This document shows, piece after piece, positions 55,152 through 64,000 of a stretch of DNA of 64,000 nt. Numbering within the stretch: position 1 is the stretch's first letter; the number at the start of each line of letters is the position of its first letter. Under the pieces are notes generated by a model. The model saw only the letters and a list, made by a program, of their open reading frames with translations, searched no databases and was not told the DNA's origin. This DNA is from Gautieria morchelliformis (lineage: Eukaryota > Basidiomycota > Agaricomycetes > Gomphales > Gomphaceae). The stretch is taken from assembly GCA_015179125.1 (NCBI GenBank), contig WHVA01000200.1, positions 62,001 to 126,000 on the forward strand, written 5' to 3'. The position numbers and the translations under genes were made by a program.

Positions 55152-56543
55152 CAACCTGACGCCCCCCCGGTATCTGTTGCAGGCTGGGCATATCACTGTT
55201 GTAATTGATTATGCCACTCCGTAATAGTGCTGGCGCTGCCAGCGTGTCACCTTATGTGGATACACAATCAACTTTCCCTATAAAATATCTTAGCTGCATG
55301 GGATTTTGAAGGAAGAATCACTGCGAGAAAGAACAAATTATCTAAAGTTGTTATGCACCCATGAATTACTAGGCATGGAAACGAAAGAAGTAATGAAAAG
55401 ATCCGTCACCACGATCGATGACTCGGGACACGTGCGTACAAGCTCCAGAAATTCTGTTTGGGAGGATGCGATTCCATGACTGCTTTTCATTATTGCTCCT
55501 GCTTAACAAAAGCCTTGTCAAATGCACCCCAGCCTTTAGTCTTAGAGATGTAGGGTCTATAGTTGGGTATCGACATCCATTAACAGAGCCTTGCACCGCG
55601 TAAGTTCAGTGCAAGGCGTGTCTGCTGCAGGCATAAGCTCTTCAAATTCCCGTGGAATGAAGACGGGTGGTTTGCGGAGTAGCGTGGCGATATCCAAGAC
55701 CGAAGAAAGAAATGAGACTGCATTGGTGCCAAACAGAGCTGCACCTGAGTAGGGGCAGGTTCTTGTAGGGTGGACTGGGCTGATCATTTCCTTGGTTGTG
55801 TCAATGAACATGTCATGGCTGTCGTCTGATGTACGAACACCTCCGGAGAATCTGATATCCCTTCTTCGAGGTCACTCCTACAGAAAACCAAAGGGTATGT
55901 GTAAAAATTAGGCTAAACGAAGAGGGCTCACTGTGCGTTAGTTTCTGGTCTCGGCACACCTTGGCTACTATGGGATACATCATAAAGTTCTAGCGCACGC
56001 GCGACTACTCTGAAAAAGGGGACAAACATCATGCCGTAGTTAAATCCGTCATGAGCACTAAGTATTTGCAGCTTGACTGATGAATTTTAACTGATTGGGT
56101 AGTTTATTAGGTTGATGGACACTTGCTTCATAGAGACGGAAATGTGGCTTTAGGAAAGCAAGGCATAATAATGTCTCGTGAGAATGTATTTCTGTCTCCG
56201 ACAACCAGCCGGCTGTCCTCAAATATAACCCACCCGTCTCAACATTGAACCCCTACTCCCCAACGCTACCTTAAAATATGAACCGGGGATCAATAGAAAG
56301 CTCTCAATGAGCACATTCTAGCAAAATTATCCATTTCATGATATCGTCAAAGTTCGTTCAGTTATAAGTCAATCTTTGTGTCATACAGGCTTCGTGCCAC
56401 CATATGTTCTGCTTCTTGCAGCCTTGAACGGAATCCATCCCGGAGCGTTATTAGAGTAGATTGAGTGCACATTAATGAGAGCCACTGTGGCCAGTACAGT
56501 CTGTATATTTCTAATAATTCTACATTGGGATTTACTTGATGAA
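55152..56543. other. 1.4 kb spacer before the transposase gene
   Basis: Contains a possible coding relic (55557-56060, minus) and AT-rich DNA. I looked for a terminal inverted repeat matching the right flank (63858-64000) and saw none of convincing length. Confidence 0.4.
55557..56060 (-). CDS. Possible gene fragment, unrecognised
   Basis: Two exon-like segments: LQILSAHDGFNYGMMFVPFF then RVVARALELYDVSHSS (about 55940-56060), and, in another frame, FIDTTKEMISPVHPTRTCPY to a stop at 55557 with FLSSVLDIATLLRKPPVF. The sequence character looks protein-like, but I could not connect the two with a unique intron and know no matching family. It may be a small gene or the tail of a decayed one. Confidence 0.28.
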
Positions 56544-57829
56544 CTATTTTCGGGGCCGCAGACGTCGCCCTACAACTGCCGGTGCCAGGACTCCTTCGGG
56601 GCTTCGCTTTCGCTTAGCGTTGGATATCTTCTGAGTGCCCGTATAGTTTGTCGCCAAGCCGTCACCAGAAGTATCCTCTCGCTGTTTACCATGTGGAAGA
56701 GCACCGGCAAATGCTTTCCATCCCTCGGTGGTCTTCACAAGTCGAATCAAGGGCAGTTGATCTGTAGCTAGAGCAGACCCAACCGCCAGAGCTGCATCTA
56801 TAGCTAAAGATGACCTAGTCTCTTCTGTTTTGTTGGTCGCTGCATGTTCCACTCGAGCCCTTTCTACACTTTCGGCTTCTCCTTGACTAGGCTTTTGTGT
56901 AGGTTTGCTGGGTTCTTTTACAGCTGCCGTCTGCTGCACCTCGCTTCCACTCGCCATAGCTTCATCTTTGTGACCTTGTAGTACATCAGGACTTTCCATT
57001 TGACCAGCTTTGGGAATAACAGTTACAGCTTCTTGTGGGACATGTTCTTTAGTGCGCCCAGTGTCCGCATCGCGTTTATCCACATCGCGTGAAGGGGCTT
57101 CTTCAATATGAGCCTGCTCTTATGTGATAAGTGTCAAATAAAGCAGAAAATAAAGTGATGACCTTAGGATCAGAAGCAAAGGACACCTCAACGCCCGGTA
57201 GCTTGATCGTCGCGTCCATAATCCTGCGCGTCCGTTCAAAATCATCGTGTCCTTTGACACTCAGCGAAACGCGCCCTCGCATAGCTTCCCATACCAATTC
57301 ATGATCCGAGGAGGGTCGATACAGGTCGCCCTGGTCTGCCAGCACGTACGTTTCTTCAGCTCCGAGCCCCAGTCGATTACCTAGCAGATAGTAAGCCAGA
57401 ATTGCGCAACCAGGGCCGAACGCCAGGTTTGTCTGTTCCAGGTGGCCCTGAATGCCATGCGTTTCTCCTAACACACATGCAAGTCTGCTAGCACAAAAGG
57501 ATCCAATGATGTATGCATCCACATTGTCTAGGTATTGGGAATGTTCTCTAAAAAAGTCAAAAGTCAGACCAGCATCAAGTGTGGATCGTGTGCGCTTGGC
57601 TAGACGTTCATTCCATTGGTCGACTAGTCTGTTGAACGGTGTTCTTGATGGTTGCGCGAGAATCTCTGCAACAGTATCAATGACTGTGCACAGATAGTCA
57701 TGTGCAGCTGCCTTTGCCGGTGAGAGAATGTCTCTGATTTGGTCATCTGCTAGACCTTGGGCTTCAGCAGCCTCTAGGTCACGCGTGTCCAAGTCGGCGG
57801 GCCATCTTAATTTGGGGATCTATGAAAAA

Positions 57830-59260
57830 TATATTAGGGACAGTCCAGTTCCGTAGAACATGATCCAGCACGTACCTGATAGGTTTGGAGCTCAGGCACT
57901 GAATCGTCAGGGGCACCCATGAGATCATAACATTCGGCGAACGTGCGAGTGAATTCATAGGTGTTTGGGAGAGGCAAAATGTCATAGAAGACTCGGAAGG
58001 TTGCGACCTGAGATGAAATATCGCATGCTGTGATCCGTGCTGGGAAATGTAGGTCTCCCGGAGCAAGGGGCCACAATGCCCAGGCATCCATGCGAGGCAC
58101 ATATGTCTCTCTCACCTGGGCAGACAGAATGACATTGGTGGAGGCAGGGTTATGGGTATTGGGCACCCTCAATGTCATTTTAAACGGTTCCACCCACTCA
58201 GATAGTGGGAAGGGTGCAGGGTTAGATTTGCAATGGGAGAATGACGCATGGGGCACTGCCTGTTGATCTTGCCATTCACAAGCCAAGCGTTGTCCTATTT
58301 GGGTACGCAGACCTTCAATGTCACCAGCACTCAGCAAGTATGTAGGTGCTTCTGGATCACCACCTCTCACTAACTCCTGTGTAAACGCCACCAGGTATAC
58401 CCCACAGTCGGTGATGTTTGACTGCTGGGGTAAGTGAGAAGGTAGCTTATAACCAGGTGAATATGGAGCCAACATGCAATGATAAGTAAGTCTTACCTCT
58501 GATCGCATATGCTCATCTGAATTCTGACGCCAAATGCCAGAAATTTCACCTCGATCTGAGCAATGTGACTCCCATGCAAGAAAGCGTAAAATGCGCTAGG
58601 ATATCACACAGTGAGACAAAAACAGAATATATAGAGGGCTTAGTGACACAAACCTCATAGATGTGCTTGTGCATAAGCACATTGGGGGTCATGCTATCAT
58701 ATATGCGAATCAACATGGTTTGCATGTTAATTGCTACCAGTATCCAATGCCTTTTTTTGGCAATAAACCATGGAAGGAGAAGTCTTCCATAATTAAATAC
58801 ATCGCACTAAAACATATTCAAGTCAGCTGATTTACTGATAAATGTGATAAGAGAGACCTACATCAGGTACCCAAGAGGTGAGCTTACTTCCCTTTTTTCT
58901 TCGTCCTCTCCCCTGTCCTGGAGGCCCAAATGTAGCTGTCAGAGGGGCATCACGAATGCGATCAGCAAGTATAGTGTCAAAGATCTTAAAACTGGCCAGA
59001 TCTGAGGTACTGGTATGGCAATCCAGGGTGTAGAGGTGAAAGTAGCTGTTGATCACCGTTTCAGAAAGTTCCCCCTGTGAGCGCAAGGCTTGGAGTTTGG
59101 CAGCATTAAGTGGGTAGATGCCATTGACCGTAAACCCTAACAGTTCATAGTCACACAGGGCCAGAAACAGTAGCTTGCTCTTGTCCGAGGCGCTTCTGGT
59201 TGTGTCCTGAAGGATGTGTAAGAAAGTGAATGAGATTTTTAGATTTAGAACAGGAAACAA
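57830..59260 (-). other. Ulp1/C48 protease module 2 (complete catalytic set)
   Basis: Within the transposase gene. The segment runs from ELSETVINSYFHLYTLD (near 59050) through FNYGRLLLPWFIAKKRHWIL, AINMQTMLIRIYDSMTP and, after two introns, PQQSNITDCGVYLVAF near 58400. His (RHW), Asp (YDS), Gln (QQSN) and Cys (DCG) of clan CE SUMO-type proteases are all present in order and spacing. It is predicted to be an active isopeptidase. Confidence 0.8.
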
Positions 59261-59339
59261 ACCATCAGTGGAATTGAGCCTGAAATTTTGAAGGTCTTAT
59301 GAGAGGGTGACTAAATCCAACCCCGTGTGTGAGTGGTTA

Positions 59340-60330
59340 GGCTGCGAGTGAAAGGCGAAACATTACATTATTGTGCATGTTATGAAGAGCTATTGGGCTA
59401 AGCTTGTGTTGGGCCATTGCCTGGGCAACTTGCTCTATAGTCAATCCTTCATCGCCGCACACATAGGACGCATAAATTGTGGCAAGCATTTGCTTGATGT
59501 CTGCTGGTCGAAGTTGGTATACGTCCCTAGTGTCTGCATGCAGCAAAAGTGTGAGAGCGATGATAACTACCCAGAAGCCACAAGTGCTTGAATCGTCCTG
59601 GAGATGTGTAGGGAATGAGACATAAGGAGTATCGAGCGGAATCTGCCATATCTCAATGTCAAGAGGGTTCTCAACATGGTTAATGGCATGGGCTTACAGG
59701 TGGTGTGCCGGCCGGCAGAAGGTAATTATGGATCACCCACTGATCTACAATGGTGGAGTGGCCCTGCATATCTGCTGTTGGGTTGTAACGTGTGCATGCA
59801 TTACGAGGGGTGCTGCCAAGTGAATGGTAGAATAAGGTCCAGTGATTTTGATGGAGATCCATAAACATGATGTACGTAAATGGAGTTCGTTCATGCTGTT
59901 CAAGCAGCGACTGACAAAAGGGGGGTTTCTGACCAAGGAGTTAGACATCACACATGAAGCTTATGGGTGTGAAAACTATACCGTGCCACCGCTCAATGCT
60001 TCTGCGAAGCTAGTGGACATTCCAGGAGAAATGCAGAACCACGTGTGGAGTCCACATGCTGTGCTGAGTGAGTTGAACATTTCAACAAACACCATCATCT
60101 CCTCAATTCTGAGCCAGTATTCCGGGTTGTCCCACCGCGAGCAGTCAGCAGACCAAATTGCTAGGTCTTCGGCAGTAAGATCATCAAGGAGATGTCTGGG
60201 TTCAACATCAGGACTCAATCGGACAAGTTGACTCAAAAGGGGTTTGGTGCTTGAGCCTGCAATAGACTCATCAGGTATCCCATCAAGAGGACCAGCAACT
60301 CCCAGCATGAACTGTCCAGGAGGTTGGCCT
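59340..60330 (-). other. Ulp1/C48-like protease module 1 (Asp replaced by Asn)
   Basis: Upstream in the same gene. LTAEDLAIWSADCSRW and RIEEMMVFVEMFNSL resemble the N-terminal lobe. QNHWTLFYHSL supplies the His, RYNPTADMQG stands where Ulp1 has Tyr-Asp, and HLQDDSSTCGFWVVI gives Gln and Cys. The expected Asp codon is AAC (Asn), so activity may be reduced or lost. Confidence 0.62.
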
Positions 60331-60904
60331 AGCACCTTGCGCCTAGCCAGGTGTTTCCAATGCAGGTGTGTCTGTCATAACACTGTTCATCAAACGTTTG
60401 GTTGGCTTTCTACCGGGCTTTCTGCTGAATTGCGGAACTGCGCGTCGTTTCGTTGGAGATCGCCATGGCTGCATGGGGACCACTGGGGTTGGCTGTCCAT
60501 GGGCAGAAATAGGAGTAGAAATAACTACATAATTTATAAATATCATGCATGCCAGGTCAATTGATGCTCACATTGATTTTTCGGAGCTGGTGAACCACCA
60601 TCAAGCTCGGCCAACACAACAGGCTCTGTTGAACTTGATGATTGAGGGTCTTCATCAACAACGGTGTATGTAGCCTGGTGTGCGTACACCTTCTTCAGGC
60701 ATTGATCGATCTCGGCATCCCAGACTTTATCAGATCGCTGATGTGTCTGAGGACGTTTCCCTTTGTCCTGCGTGAGTGGTAGGCGTTTTTGATTGCTAGT
60801 TTCGAGCGCTGCATTTATTTAGCTGTGTGACTGATATCGAATGTAAACAGTGTACTGCACCTTTCCATTCAGAAGCCGGTCCATTTGACACTTGCAATTT
60901 ACCA

Positions 60905-60965
60905 GCTAGAAGGTGAGCGCCATACTTCCCTGTTTGAACCCATGCGTCACATGTACAGCTTGGTG
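60905..60965 (-). other. SWIM zinc finger of the transposase, one ligand missing
   Basis: SCTCDAWVQTGKYGAHLLAG fits the SWIM pattern CxC...CxH except that the third Cys position is Gly (codon GGC, plus-strand 60919-60921). One base change from TGC would explain it. Confidence 0.65.
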
Positions 60966-63900
60966 CAAGAATGTCAACATTAAAAGCCCCTGGCGTTTTG
61001 GAATCCCTGGTGAACGGACCTGGGCATGCAGAGTACTAGCATTCCCACTCACGGTAATGCCAAAACTTGAAAACGGCCATGTGATCCTACCTGATGCACG
61101 AGACCGGTATCCCACAGTTGATGAGCTTCATAGTTTAATTGCACAAGGTCGCGAGGCTCATTCCGAGGGGTAGAGGCCCAGAATCTGTAGTAAGGAAAGA
61201 ATTCATTCAGAATAATCCCAGCTAAACGATTGATCCTTCCAGAAAACATGGCAGAGACATATGCTATCATATTCACTCGAACTCACCGTTTATTCTTGCG
61301 GTTGTCCAGAAATACCGAGTCAAAAACACGAAAACCTCGTTCAATCCAGTTATTCACATTCCATGTGCCGTCACGAGTCTGTCCAGCGGGGAGCCCAATA
61401 TCTGTGAAGTGCTCTGAGTTACCATACCCAGTGAGCATGTTATCCCATCACACATATTTGTTTGATGCCTCACCTATCCACTCCTCTGTGAACCAGTTGT
61501 GGCTGAAGTAGTCACGCACCCATGCCGATTGCTGTGTTCGGACTTGAGCAGTTGACTTTGACATTCCCCGTTTGCGCATGCCCAGCTTCTGAGGGTCATC
61601 TGACTGCGAGCTCTCAGAGTCTGCGCTTGAATCAGAATCAGAAACATGCACGGCCACTTGGTCATCTTGTGACATGATTAACTTGTCAACCTGTTCCAGG
61701 AAAGTGTCCCTTGCACCTGGCCAAGAATCCCAAGTTCGGCAGCGCTGGAGACCACGGAAAAAGATCAGGATTTCATACTTGATCTCCTGCAAAATCCTGG
61801 GACATGTGCTCTTAGGCTTGTCATCGCCGTCCCAACGTAAGATCACCTGTATGACATGAAACTGGCACAGCCGGATATATGTGTCGGGAAATGCTAAATT
61901 TGTGGTCTTTTCAGAGGACAGCCATACGTAGCATACAGATAGTCAACTTACCTTGCTTGATGGCTTTGAGCTCAGACCTACACTTATCAATCATGAACTT
62001 TGGGATGTGCCAGCCTTCCTTGACAATGCCCCTGCAAAGCCTCACGATTTCGGCCCTGTCGGCTTCTCCAGGGTGCTCGATGCTGCTTGTATCTGCCATG
62101 GTACTGTATGAGATTAAGAAAATATGACTATTGGGCCCATATCGTACCTGCGTTAATCTGTTTTGCTCGTCGTCCTACCTTGATCTTGGTAGCTTCCAGG
62201 TACGTGGCTAAGGTCTGCGTGCGCACATTTTCAGACAGTAATACAGATCCTACGTACATCATAGTAGACAAAACGTTGCCATTAGATATAATATGCCATA
62301 GCAATGCACAGTGACTGACCTGGAACGAAGTGTTGATGCTCATTGACCGCAATCAGGAATGTCACGGCTGCACGATTTTCATTTTTATTGTGCCAGCTAA
62401 CCACATCTACCTGAGGAACCCTCAGAACATATGTACAACTTCGCAGGTAGAAGGGATATCGACGGTTTGAATTGCGGCCAAACCATCACGCGTGCCATGG
62501 AGAATTAAATTCTCGAGGGTGAAATTGTCTGCCATAGTGCATGTGAATCGCGACAGACTGTCAGGCTTGTGGGGATTATGAGGGATGAAACTTCGAAATA
62601 GGTAGGTATGATAAATTCGACAGATATATTCATAGACCTACTTGTAAATCTTGTGGGGATTGCGATTCTTGAGAATTACGACGGCAGTGAAAGGATCCTG
62701 ATCCAGACGTACTCGGCGAATGACGGCAGGTAACAACTGTCTGATCTGTTTGGCAGTTGGCCTGCGGAATGCTGGGAAGTTGTCGGTTATGTCAGTTGGG
62801 GCATTTGTTGGTCTGGAAGTGGGCAACGGGTTCCGGTACTGGTTAACTAGCTCTGCAATGGATTGTTTTGTAAGTTTCTTATTGTACTTGCCATAGGTAA
62901 GGCACGTACCACGCATAACCGTTGTAGCCTTGACACCTACCAGCCTCAGCCGTTCAGATACCAGGTTATGCAAATGCCGTGACCAAAGCAAGTTTTTCGG
63001 ATTTGCGTCTTCGTGGGTACCGGATTGCCAAACGGTGACCCGAGTCAAGTCGTCAGCATAAGCCTCAAGCTGCATGATCATATTGTTAGTACTACAATAA
63101 TTAAATCAAAACGAGCCCGTACCATGAGTCTCACTTGACCTGGGCATTGTTTCCAACGGTTTTTGCGTTGCACGAGAGGATTAGAACATTTATCTTCCTG
63201 ATCGGACTCTGTCGCAGAGTCAGATGTGTCTGATACCAAGGCACAGGCTCCTCGGCACTTGTATTCAAACCGGGCAACGACCCTCCTTTGTAAAATGGCT
63301 GCCTCACGTCCCTGGAGTGAAAGTCCAGATGTTTCATTCCAGAACAGGATGAAGGGACGTGCCCTGACATCAACGGGTGTGTCGTTCGGATGTCCAAACC
63401 ACGACTGGTCAACAGACACAGAAGTGGTGGCCCTGTAGGGGTTATAGTCATTGCACTATAATGTCAATCATTTTATTAGTATGCACATATATAATTCCTG
63501 ATAACTTACTTGAGCATCAAACCAATCCGGCAGCTTGGTGGTGAGGACATGACCCACATCCTTCCATACCGGCGCCAGGCGTTGGACGGAGTCCAAGAGA
63601 AGGGGCTTGTTGGATCGGTTTGTACTGAGATCAGGGGGAGGGAGACTGTGAGCTTCAATGAGATACGCACGCCGTCTTGGAGTGATGATGATGTCGGACT
63701 CGGAGTCGTTTGAAGAGGTGATGGAAGCCGTGTGGGGACTCTCTGCAGGGGGGCTGCTAGTAGTATTGAAGATGCGAAGGTTGTCATTCCGGGTTTGCCG
63801 TCCAGGTTTACGGAACTTCTTAGGCGGTCAACTGGGGCGTCGTGTGTTAGGCGGCATGTCGATTTATTGAAGAGAACGTATCGTGCGCTGTTATATAGCT

Positions 63901-64000
63901 GAGGGGCGTCAAAGAACACTGAGAAGTTCAGTATTCACACAGTATATGCTTAAGACAGACAAACCACAAAGTGACATAGTCCACCGAGACATACACAGTG

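Follow-up and report, generated by a model that had tools for sequence, protein, structure and literature searches.

A Mutator-like element of Gautieria morchelliformis that probably encodes a putative and a canonical Ulp1-like module in one gene with its transposase

Introduction

Domains resembling the Ulp1 protease have been described in Mutator elements of hydra, lancelet, Arabidopsis, maize, rice, melon and grapevine (PMC2836005, PMC2528002), and they are also found in CACTA, Ginger and Crypton elements (PMC2528002, PMC2836005, PMC3212892). Among plant Mutator-like elements (MULEs), those called Kaonashi (KI-MULE or KIU, of the Vandal type) carry a conserved Ulp1-like domain described as being of unknown function (PMC13317346, PMC2528002); they are devoid of terminal inverted repeats (TIRs), and their one Ulp1 domain is borne by a separate gene, which in KI-MULEs is in reverse orientation to mudrA. 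Here, we analyze a MULE lying in a 64,000-nt stretch of DNA (hereafter the window) from the fungus Gautieria morchelliformis (contig WHVA01000200.1, positions 62,001–126,000), whose transposase is followed on the same strand by two modules: module A, a candidate divergent Ulp1-like module, and module B, a canonical Ulp1/C48 module. In contrast to Kaonashi, this element has TIRs and two modules, which probably belong to one protein with the transposase. Its TIRs and its same-strand, in-frame link set it apart from the Kaonashi/KIU type, a non-TIR MULE with Ulp1 on its own gene.

The likeness to other described elements is also partial. The Ulp1 domain is co-oriented with the transposase in some plant MULEs and also occurs in TIR-MULEs of melon; for the melon, rice, grapevine, hydra and lancelet elements, however, the available portions of the sources describe an Ulp1 domain and name neither a tandem pair nor a fungus (PMC2836005, PMC2528002). 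In Ginger1 elements of animals, the DDE transposase is extended at its C-terminus by a fused Ulp1 or OTU domain, but this transposase is Gypsy-integrase-like, the two domains do not occur together and the available text mentions no second Ulp1 domain (PMC2836005). CryptonF and CryptonS elements of oomycetes are DNA transposons carrying a C48 peptidase, the oomycete CryptonF elements nesting within fungal ones; there, a tyrosine recombinase replaces the DDE transposase and, in the text available, the peptidase is single (PMC3212892). DDE-type MULEs of fungi and other organisms form the Hop group (group 35 in PMC6446971), of which a sub-group from plants, Phytophthora, Puccinia and fungi is given CCHC, C2H2 and SWIM motifs; the main text of that paper contains no Ulp-, C48, protease or peptidase term. 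As to function, plant MULEs with VANC genes bearing Ulp1 are reported to act in hypomethylating elements related to them, and according to the text available the part played there by Ulp1 itself is unknown (PMC13317346), and the work on Ginger suggests a role of Ulp1 in repair after transposition (PMC2836005).

Two recent studies of fungal elements were also considered: the main text of a 2024 screen for co-option of fungal transposable elements contains neither Ulp1 nor C48 (PMC10799480), and the available portions of a 2025 study of TET/JBP transposons in fungi mention neither Ulp1 nor a protease (PMC12730594). No fungal MULE with an Ulp1 domain or a tandem pair was found among the titles and abstract openings of the matches listed in our literature search, whose scope left out Repbase and most subscription journals. 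An earlier note, drawn up from the sequence of the window, had not known the tandem layout as described. Single Ulp1 domains in MULEs have been published, and within the scope of this search what appears to be new is the tandem A–B pair.

Results

Domain order and its recurrence in divergent families

The gene was modelled by hand from the sequence as 21 exons, checked against the other copies, which sum to about 2,000 codons. On the minus strand, it encodes successively a MULE DDE transposase, a SWIM finger, module A, module B and a C-terminal region of ~540 codons (Table 1). From 63857 to 56544, this strand does contain both transposase blocks quoted in the earlier note, the SWIM-type CxC..H motif and the two catalytic sets, arranged as the note stated. 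Where exon E5 ends is uncertain; its donor possibly lies earlier, given the stop shared by C446, C424, C267 and C363 in the last codons.

Copies, designated here by their contigs, were sought in the same 122-Mb assembly (G000, in which the window is C228:62001-126000), and all copy lists from this search are lower bounds. The recurrence of the layout goes beyond chance: the exons recur in many copies, and a divergent family shows the transposase–A–B order again. Searching the genome with protein queries retrieved this order in at least C615, C759, C626, C246 and C312. In C615 and C759 (family II), amino-acid identity to the window copy (family I) is about 30 to 63% over the A and B exons. In C337 (family III), only the adjacency of A and B was observed, at about 117 kb, the transposase match of this contig being on the opposite strand, near 60 kb; among the matches listed, C678 has module A only. 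Thus, the conservation of the double module proposed as a check in the earlier note holds within this genome, with the A–B pair in three families and the transposase–A–B order in families I and II. We conclude that the arrangement is conserved, and the presence of the two modules in one chain is well supported at the DNA level. Note that, in C312, a deletion between A and B (76600–77300) fuses module A to the Cys half of B.

Linkage of the two modules

An intron that is in frame on both sides connects the transposase to module A; it measures 47 nt in C228, C691, C424 and C267 and 67 nt in C163 and C412 (C505 was left out of the comparison). In family I, the link between A and B comprises (i) a donor, GTAATG or GTAACG, (ii) the sequence CTAACCA and an acceptor, (iii) an open exon of 48 nt and (iv) a second intron of 56 or 60 nt. 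It is whole in 11 of the 21 assembled family-I segments, interrupted in C412 and not whole in nine; the interruption in C412 is an insertion of nearly 3 kb, located between 93055 and 96000, within the second linking intron. In family II (C615, C759, C626 and C246), a 62-nt intron, an open 57-nt exon and a 53-nt intron (lengths measured in C615) join A to B in frame, the first donor being GTGAGT, or GTAAGT in C246. In family III, a single in-frame intron of 67 nt with a GTGAGT donor does so.

The same region could be read as the boundary between two adjacent genes, one encoding the transposase and module A and ending at a conserved stop, the other encoding module B as a separate protease starting at its own ATG. 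Indeed, the family-I copies holding the link contain an in-frame TAA a few codons past the putative donor. Furthermore, an ATG forms the second codon of E15 in C424, C267, C163, C734, C363 and C412, plus C326 (DNA alignment), and the end of the micro-exon in the window copy alone, while in C337 an ATG occurs in frame 12 codons past the start of the exon downstream of the linking intron, so that one argument against two genes is weakened. However, the TAA sits inside CTAAC, the usual fungal branch point, between the conserved donor and acceptor; the 48 nt downstream are open in 11 of 11 copies; E15 is devoid of Met in C228, C691, C446, C253 and C322, as are the family-II exons around the link; and strong donors occupy the corresponding place in families II and III. 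The TAA was rejected as the end of a first gene because both of these families have strong in-frame introns there. Two separate genes therefore seem unlikely to us.

Some features of the link nevertheless argue against splicing through it. The donor of the first linking intron in the window group, GTAATG, is weak; among the 11 whole family-I links, this donor begins with GT in nine and with GC in two (C505 and C794); and, when the window link was shuffled 2,000 times, some in-frame bridge was also possible in 752 cases, so that a single copy alone would not prove the splice. The weight of the one-gene link comes from its recurrence over three families. Altogether, A and B are probably encoded by one gene, and we infer that the transcript would be spliced through as one mRNA. 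The proposal made in the earlier note, namely two modules C-terminal to the transposase in one gene, is thus probable for the element, as the A–B pair is kept in divergent families, but the window copy is not intact.

Module B, a canonical Ulp1/C48 module, and module A, a putative divergent one

Module B is matched by Peptidase_C48 (PF02902) with an E-value of 3.4e-11 over residues 47 to 266 of the piece starting at E15. Its best phmmer match among PDB sequences is SENP5 (E-value 3.1e-5), other sentrin proteases being matched more weakly, and its comparison with a host Ulp1-like protein (C132, exons manually joined) gave an hhalign probability of 96.6%. The His, Trp and Asp residues are present in 18 of 18 sequences, the Gln and Cys residues in 17 of them; the exception, C337, has no aligned module-B Gln and Cys, a point against the proposed reading. 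Exon E17 probably contains a 51-nt in-frame intron (58496–58446). On these similarities, the assignment of module B as a canonical Ulp1/C48 module with a His/Asp/Gln/Cys set is firm. Two more C48 matches were observed outside the element copies, at C870:266576-267124 and C328:119092-119745; they may belong to host genes or other elements.

The case of module A is different. Its His, the neighbouring Trp, an Asn at the position of the module B Asp, and its Cys are found in 15 of 15 sequences from the three families, and its Gln in 13. The spacing resembles that of module B: 6 from Gln to Cys in both, 20 (A) versus 17 (B) from His to Asn/Asp and 72 versus 78 from His to Cys. Over the Cys region, the A–B profile alignment scored 28.9 in hhalign, whereas none of 200 column shuffles scored above 23.9. 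Several results point the other way: no C48 match in Pfam for the window, C615 and C337 sequences, no match among PDB sequences, an A–B hhalign probability of 13 or 30% depending on direction, a non-significant profile comparison with host Ulp1 alone, and matches of the C615 module-A piece to two unrelated ECF transporter families. The latter, which scored below the cut-offs, were regarded as due to chance.

Module A might accordingly be a degenerate, binding-only or unrelated domain, leaving a single catalytic Ulp1 module, and the missing C48 and PDB matches, the replacement of Asp by Asn and the loss of Gln in two copies would fit this explanation. Against it stand the His, Asn and Cys kept throughout the three families with a C48-like spacing, an A–B score above all 200 shuffles, and dN/dS values (see below) lying between 0.23 and 0.36 for all but one of eight pairs; we regard it as somewhat unlikely. 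Because of these conserved residues, spacing, profile match and purifying selection, we favor a divergent Ulp1-like module, albeit one that seems only weakly related to C48. As for the two protease modules and two His/Asp-like/Gln/Cys sets of the earlier note, module B is confirmed by PF02902, whereas module A, with its Asn, is weakly supported by the profile comparison and has neither a C48 match in Pfam nor a match among PDB sequences, so that a profile test taken alone would deny it. Likewise, the profile searches that it proposed retrieved the MULE and module B C48 domains, but neither C48 in module A nor SWIM in the window copy.

Selection on the modules

Non-synonymous to synonymous substitution ratios (dN/dS) over eight pairs of copies were 0.26, 0.24, 0.24, 0.23, 0.33, 0.25, 0.36 and 0.97 for module A and 0.24, 0.33, 0.59, 0.24, 0.21, 0.30, 0.27 and 1.06 for module B. 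The last pair consists of two close relics, for which a ratio near 1 is expected from decay. The remaining module A values are near those of module B and of the DDE region, which gave 0.12 to 0.24 in five pairs. Both modules have therefore been under purifying selection between subfamilies, as shown by this computation, and the values speak for past activity of the family. Note that the C-terminal exons E17b–E18, with 0.37 to 1.18 over eight pairs, are less constrained, a point against the proposed reading.

Capture of host gene fragments without function, as in Pack-MULEs, is conceivable, since captured fragments, among them ULP domains, are frequent in plant MULEs according to the available text of PMC2528002. 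Yet the A and B exons stand in the same order in families with the low identity given above, their introns are retained, and both modules show dN/dS well under 1 in all but one of the eight pairs, all of which makes such a capture very improbable.

The modules could also serve to process the long protein itself, separating its transposase, protease and C-terminal parts in the manner of viral CE-clan proteases. CE-clan enzymes that process polyproteins are known, and one long chain holding two cysteine-protease-like modules would suit this role. However, no shared Gly-Gly or other conserved cut site was noticed in the linkers, inspected by eye only, and the linker E11–E12a shows a dN/dS of 0.30 to 0.66, with a dN above that of module A in seven of eight pairs. 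We consider polyprotein processing to be distinctly improbable.

A side observation concerns C163:142347-151600, which looks mosaic: its dS relative to C691 ranges from 0.57 to 0.85 over the exons of the N-terminal region, transposase and module A, but drops to 0.24 over B and 0.03 over E17b–E18. This pattern suggests recombination or gene conversion between subfamilies.

Transposase, SWIM finger and C-terminal region

The MULE domain PF10551 (cut-off 27.6 bits) matches the window piece with 27.8 bits and the family-II query, made of C615 pieces and the SWIM exon of C759, with 31.6 bits; C412, with 21.2 bits, falls under the cut-off. The DDE set of the window copy is not complete, the stretch around the first Asp being replaced, while this stretch is kept in 10 other aligned copies and in C412. 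An apparent stop located after the second Asp and before the Glu was rejected as a lesion, since it reads as part of an intron (GTGAG...CTCAG) kept in 11 aligned copies. The SWIM finger claimed in the earlier note is recognizable in the window copy by its CxC..H motif, but PF04434 gives no score there and the third ligand is Gly, compared to Cys in all 11 other copies with a SWIM exon. In the related copy C412, PF04434 scores above the cut-off (E-value 7.4e-6); for the family-II query it gives 13.1 bits, under the cut-off of 19.6. In the genome, PF10551 has at least 42 matches, many of them other MULE loci with long open frames of up to 681 aa (C91), and only a few of the contigs concerned (e.g. 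C424, C253 and C186) also hold copies of the present MULE.

The C-terminal region has no Pfam match. Single-sequence AlphaFold models of two of its pieces had mean predicted local distance difference test (pLDDT) values of 36 and 42, too poor to be used. A Tudor- or PWWP-like motif (AWxLWP...YPA) seen in this region was discarded as a mere impression, unsupported by any Pfam match.

Boundaries and class of the element

Comparison of copy ends and flanks gives the MULE a length of 8,444 bp (C228:118158-126601, i.e. from window position 56158 to the equivalent of 64601), so that its first 601 bp and 5' TIR fall beyond the window. The span of 56544 to 63857 proposed in the earlier note is right for the coding part, which is on the minus strand, but not for the ends of the element. 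The TIRs are imperfect, with 44 matches over 54 bp, and the 9-bp target site duplication is perfect in five of the seven copies with both ends located, the remaining two having a single mismatch. Target duplications of MULEs range from about 8 to 11 bp, and TIRs are usual in MULEs, although non-TIR MULEs exist. Given its TIRs, its 9-bp duplication and its MULE domain, the element is a Mutator-like element. A Kyakuja-Dileera-Zisupton (KDZ) transposase domain, for which Pfam includes a model, was not matched in the window, C412, C615/C759 or C337 queries.

State of the copies

The window copy is a pseudogene, as it combines a stop in frame at codon 10 (also present in C253), the replacement of the first-Asp stretch, the loss of the SWIM Cys and a 2-nt deletion at about 60358, in the exon leading into module A. 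Its module B and C-terminal part are open throughout. The sequence at the first catalytic Asp (62472–62400) is possibly a repair filler; its single match in the genome search is itself, an absence of other matches that is no proof of rarity. The chain of compatible splice sites on one strand described in the earlier note therefore stands as far as the order is concerned, but this chain is not intact in the window copy. None of the eight near-complete copies (C228, C691, C446, C253, C424, C267, C163 and C412) is free of stops, a point against the proposed reading; for this reason, family I looks inactive in this assembly. The segments C505:1-7680 and C794:2369-7682 are very similar, sharing the GC linking donor, Gly in place of the module-A Gln, and stops in E14 and E18; they are perhaps one duplicated segment or two haplotypes.

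Table 1. Positions, in window coordinates, of the MULE and of its coding features
Feature	Position	Strand	Remarks
MULE, part inside the window	56158..64000	-	TIR and flank comparison of copies
3' TIR	56158..56211	-	44 matches over 54 bp with the 5' TIR, which is outside the window
Target site duplication, 9 bp	56149..56157	-	Identical to the 9 bp preceding the 5' end
N-terminal region, E1–E4a	62480..63857	-	63857-63510, 63455-63123, 63069-62642, 62557-62480; stop at codon 10
Filler (about 70 nt)	62400..62472	-	Unrelated; replaces the first-catalytic-Asp stretch of other copies
MULE DDE region, E4b–E8	61287..62399	-	PF10551
DDE landmarks		-	Second Asp 61988-61986; CxxH motif near 61867; Glu 61342-61340
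E9–E10 with SWIM-type motif	60861..61235	-	CxC from 60957; third ligand 60921-60919; His 60915-60913
Linker from transposase to module A	60362..60808	-	E11 60808-60572; E12a 60524-60362
Module A, putative Ulp1-like	59367..60357	-	E12b; E13 59928-59698; E14 59651-59367
Module A residues		-	His 59844-59842; Asn 59784-59782; Gln 59600-59598; Cys 59582-59580
Micro-exon joining A to B, 16 codons	59263..59310	-	Between two introns of 56 nt each; all phase 0
Module B, Ulp1/C48	58266..59206	-	E15 59206-58862; E16 58806-58654; E17 from 58595; PF02902
Module B residues		-	His 58749-58747; Asp 58698-58696; Gln pair 58427-58422; Cys 58406-58404
C-terminal region	56544..58265	-	Rest of E17 to 57876; E18 57819-57163; E19 57113-56544

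Discussion

We consider it fairly likely that the autonomous form of this element encodes a single long protein composed of a DDE transposase, a SWIM finger, module A, module B and a C-terminal region, and that this protein would act by stripping SUMO. In such a mechanism, the transposase would carry out cut-and-paste transposition, while the tethered protease B would act at the element ends, removing SUMO or a SUMO-like protein from the transposase or from proteins of repair or silencing, module A perhaps acting likewise on another substrate; SUMO stripping would then favor transposition or relieve silencing. Since A and B are found side by side in three distant families, the pair probably helps the element to move or to escape silencing. 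A more elaborate version, in which B would be a deSUMOylase, A a His-Asn-Cys enzyme dedicated to another ubiquitin-like modifier or substrate class, and the C-terminus a chromatin-targeting region, the whole forming an anti-silencing machinery in cis, strikes us as rather unlikely.

Several unrelated groups of DNA transposons (Mutator, Ginger, CACTA and Crypton) carry Ulp1-like domains, and the benefit of these domains to the element is presented as an open question in the portions of the literature available. The fusion of both modules to the transposase in a single chain, if true, would make SUMO removal on the transposase complex itself testable, as the proteases would sit at the element ends. 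Finally, the maintenance of two modules by selection suggests that they may have two separate substrates.

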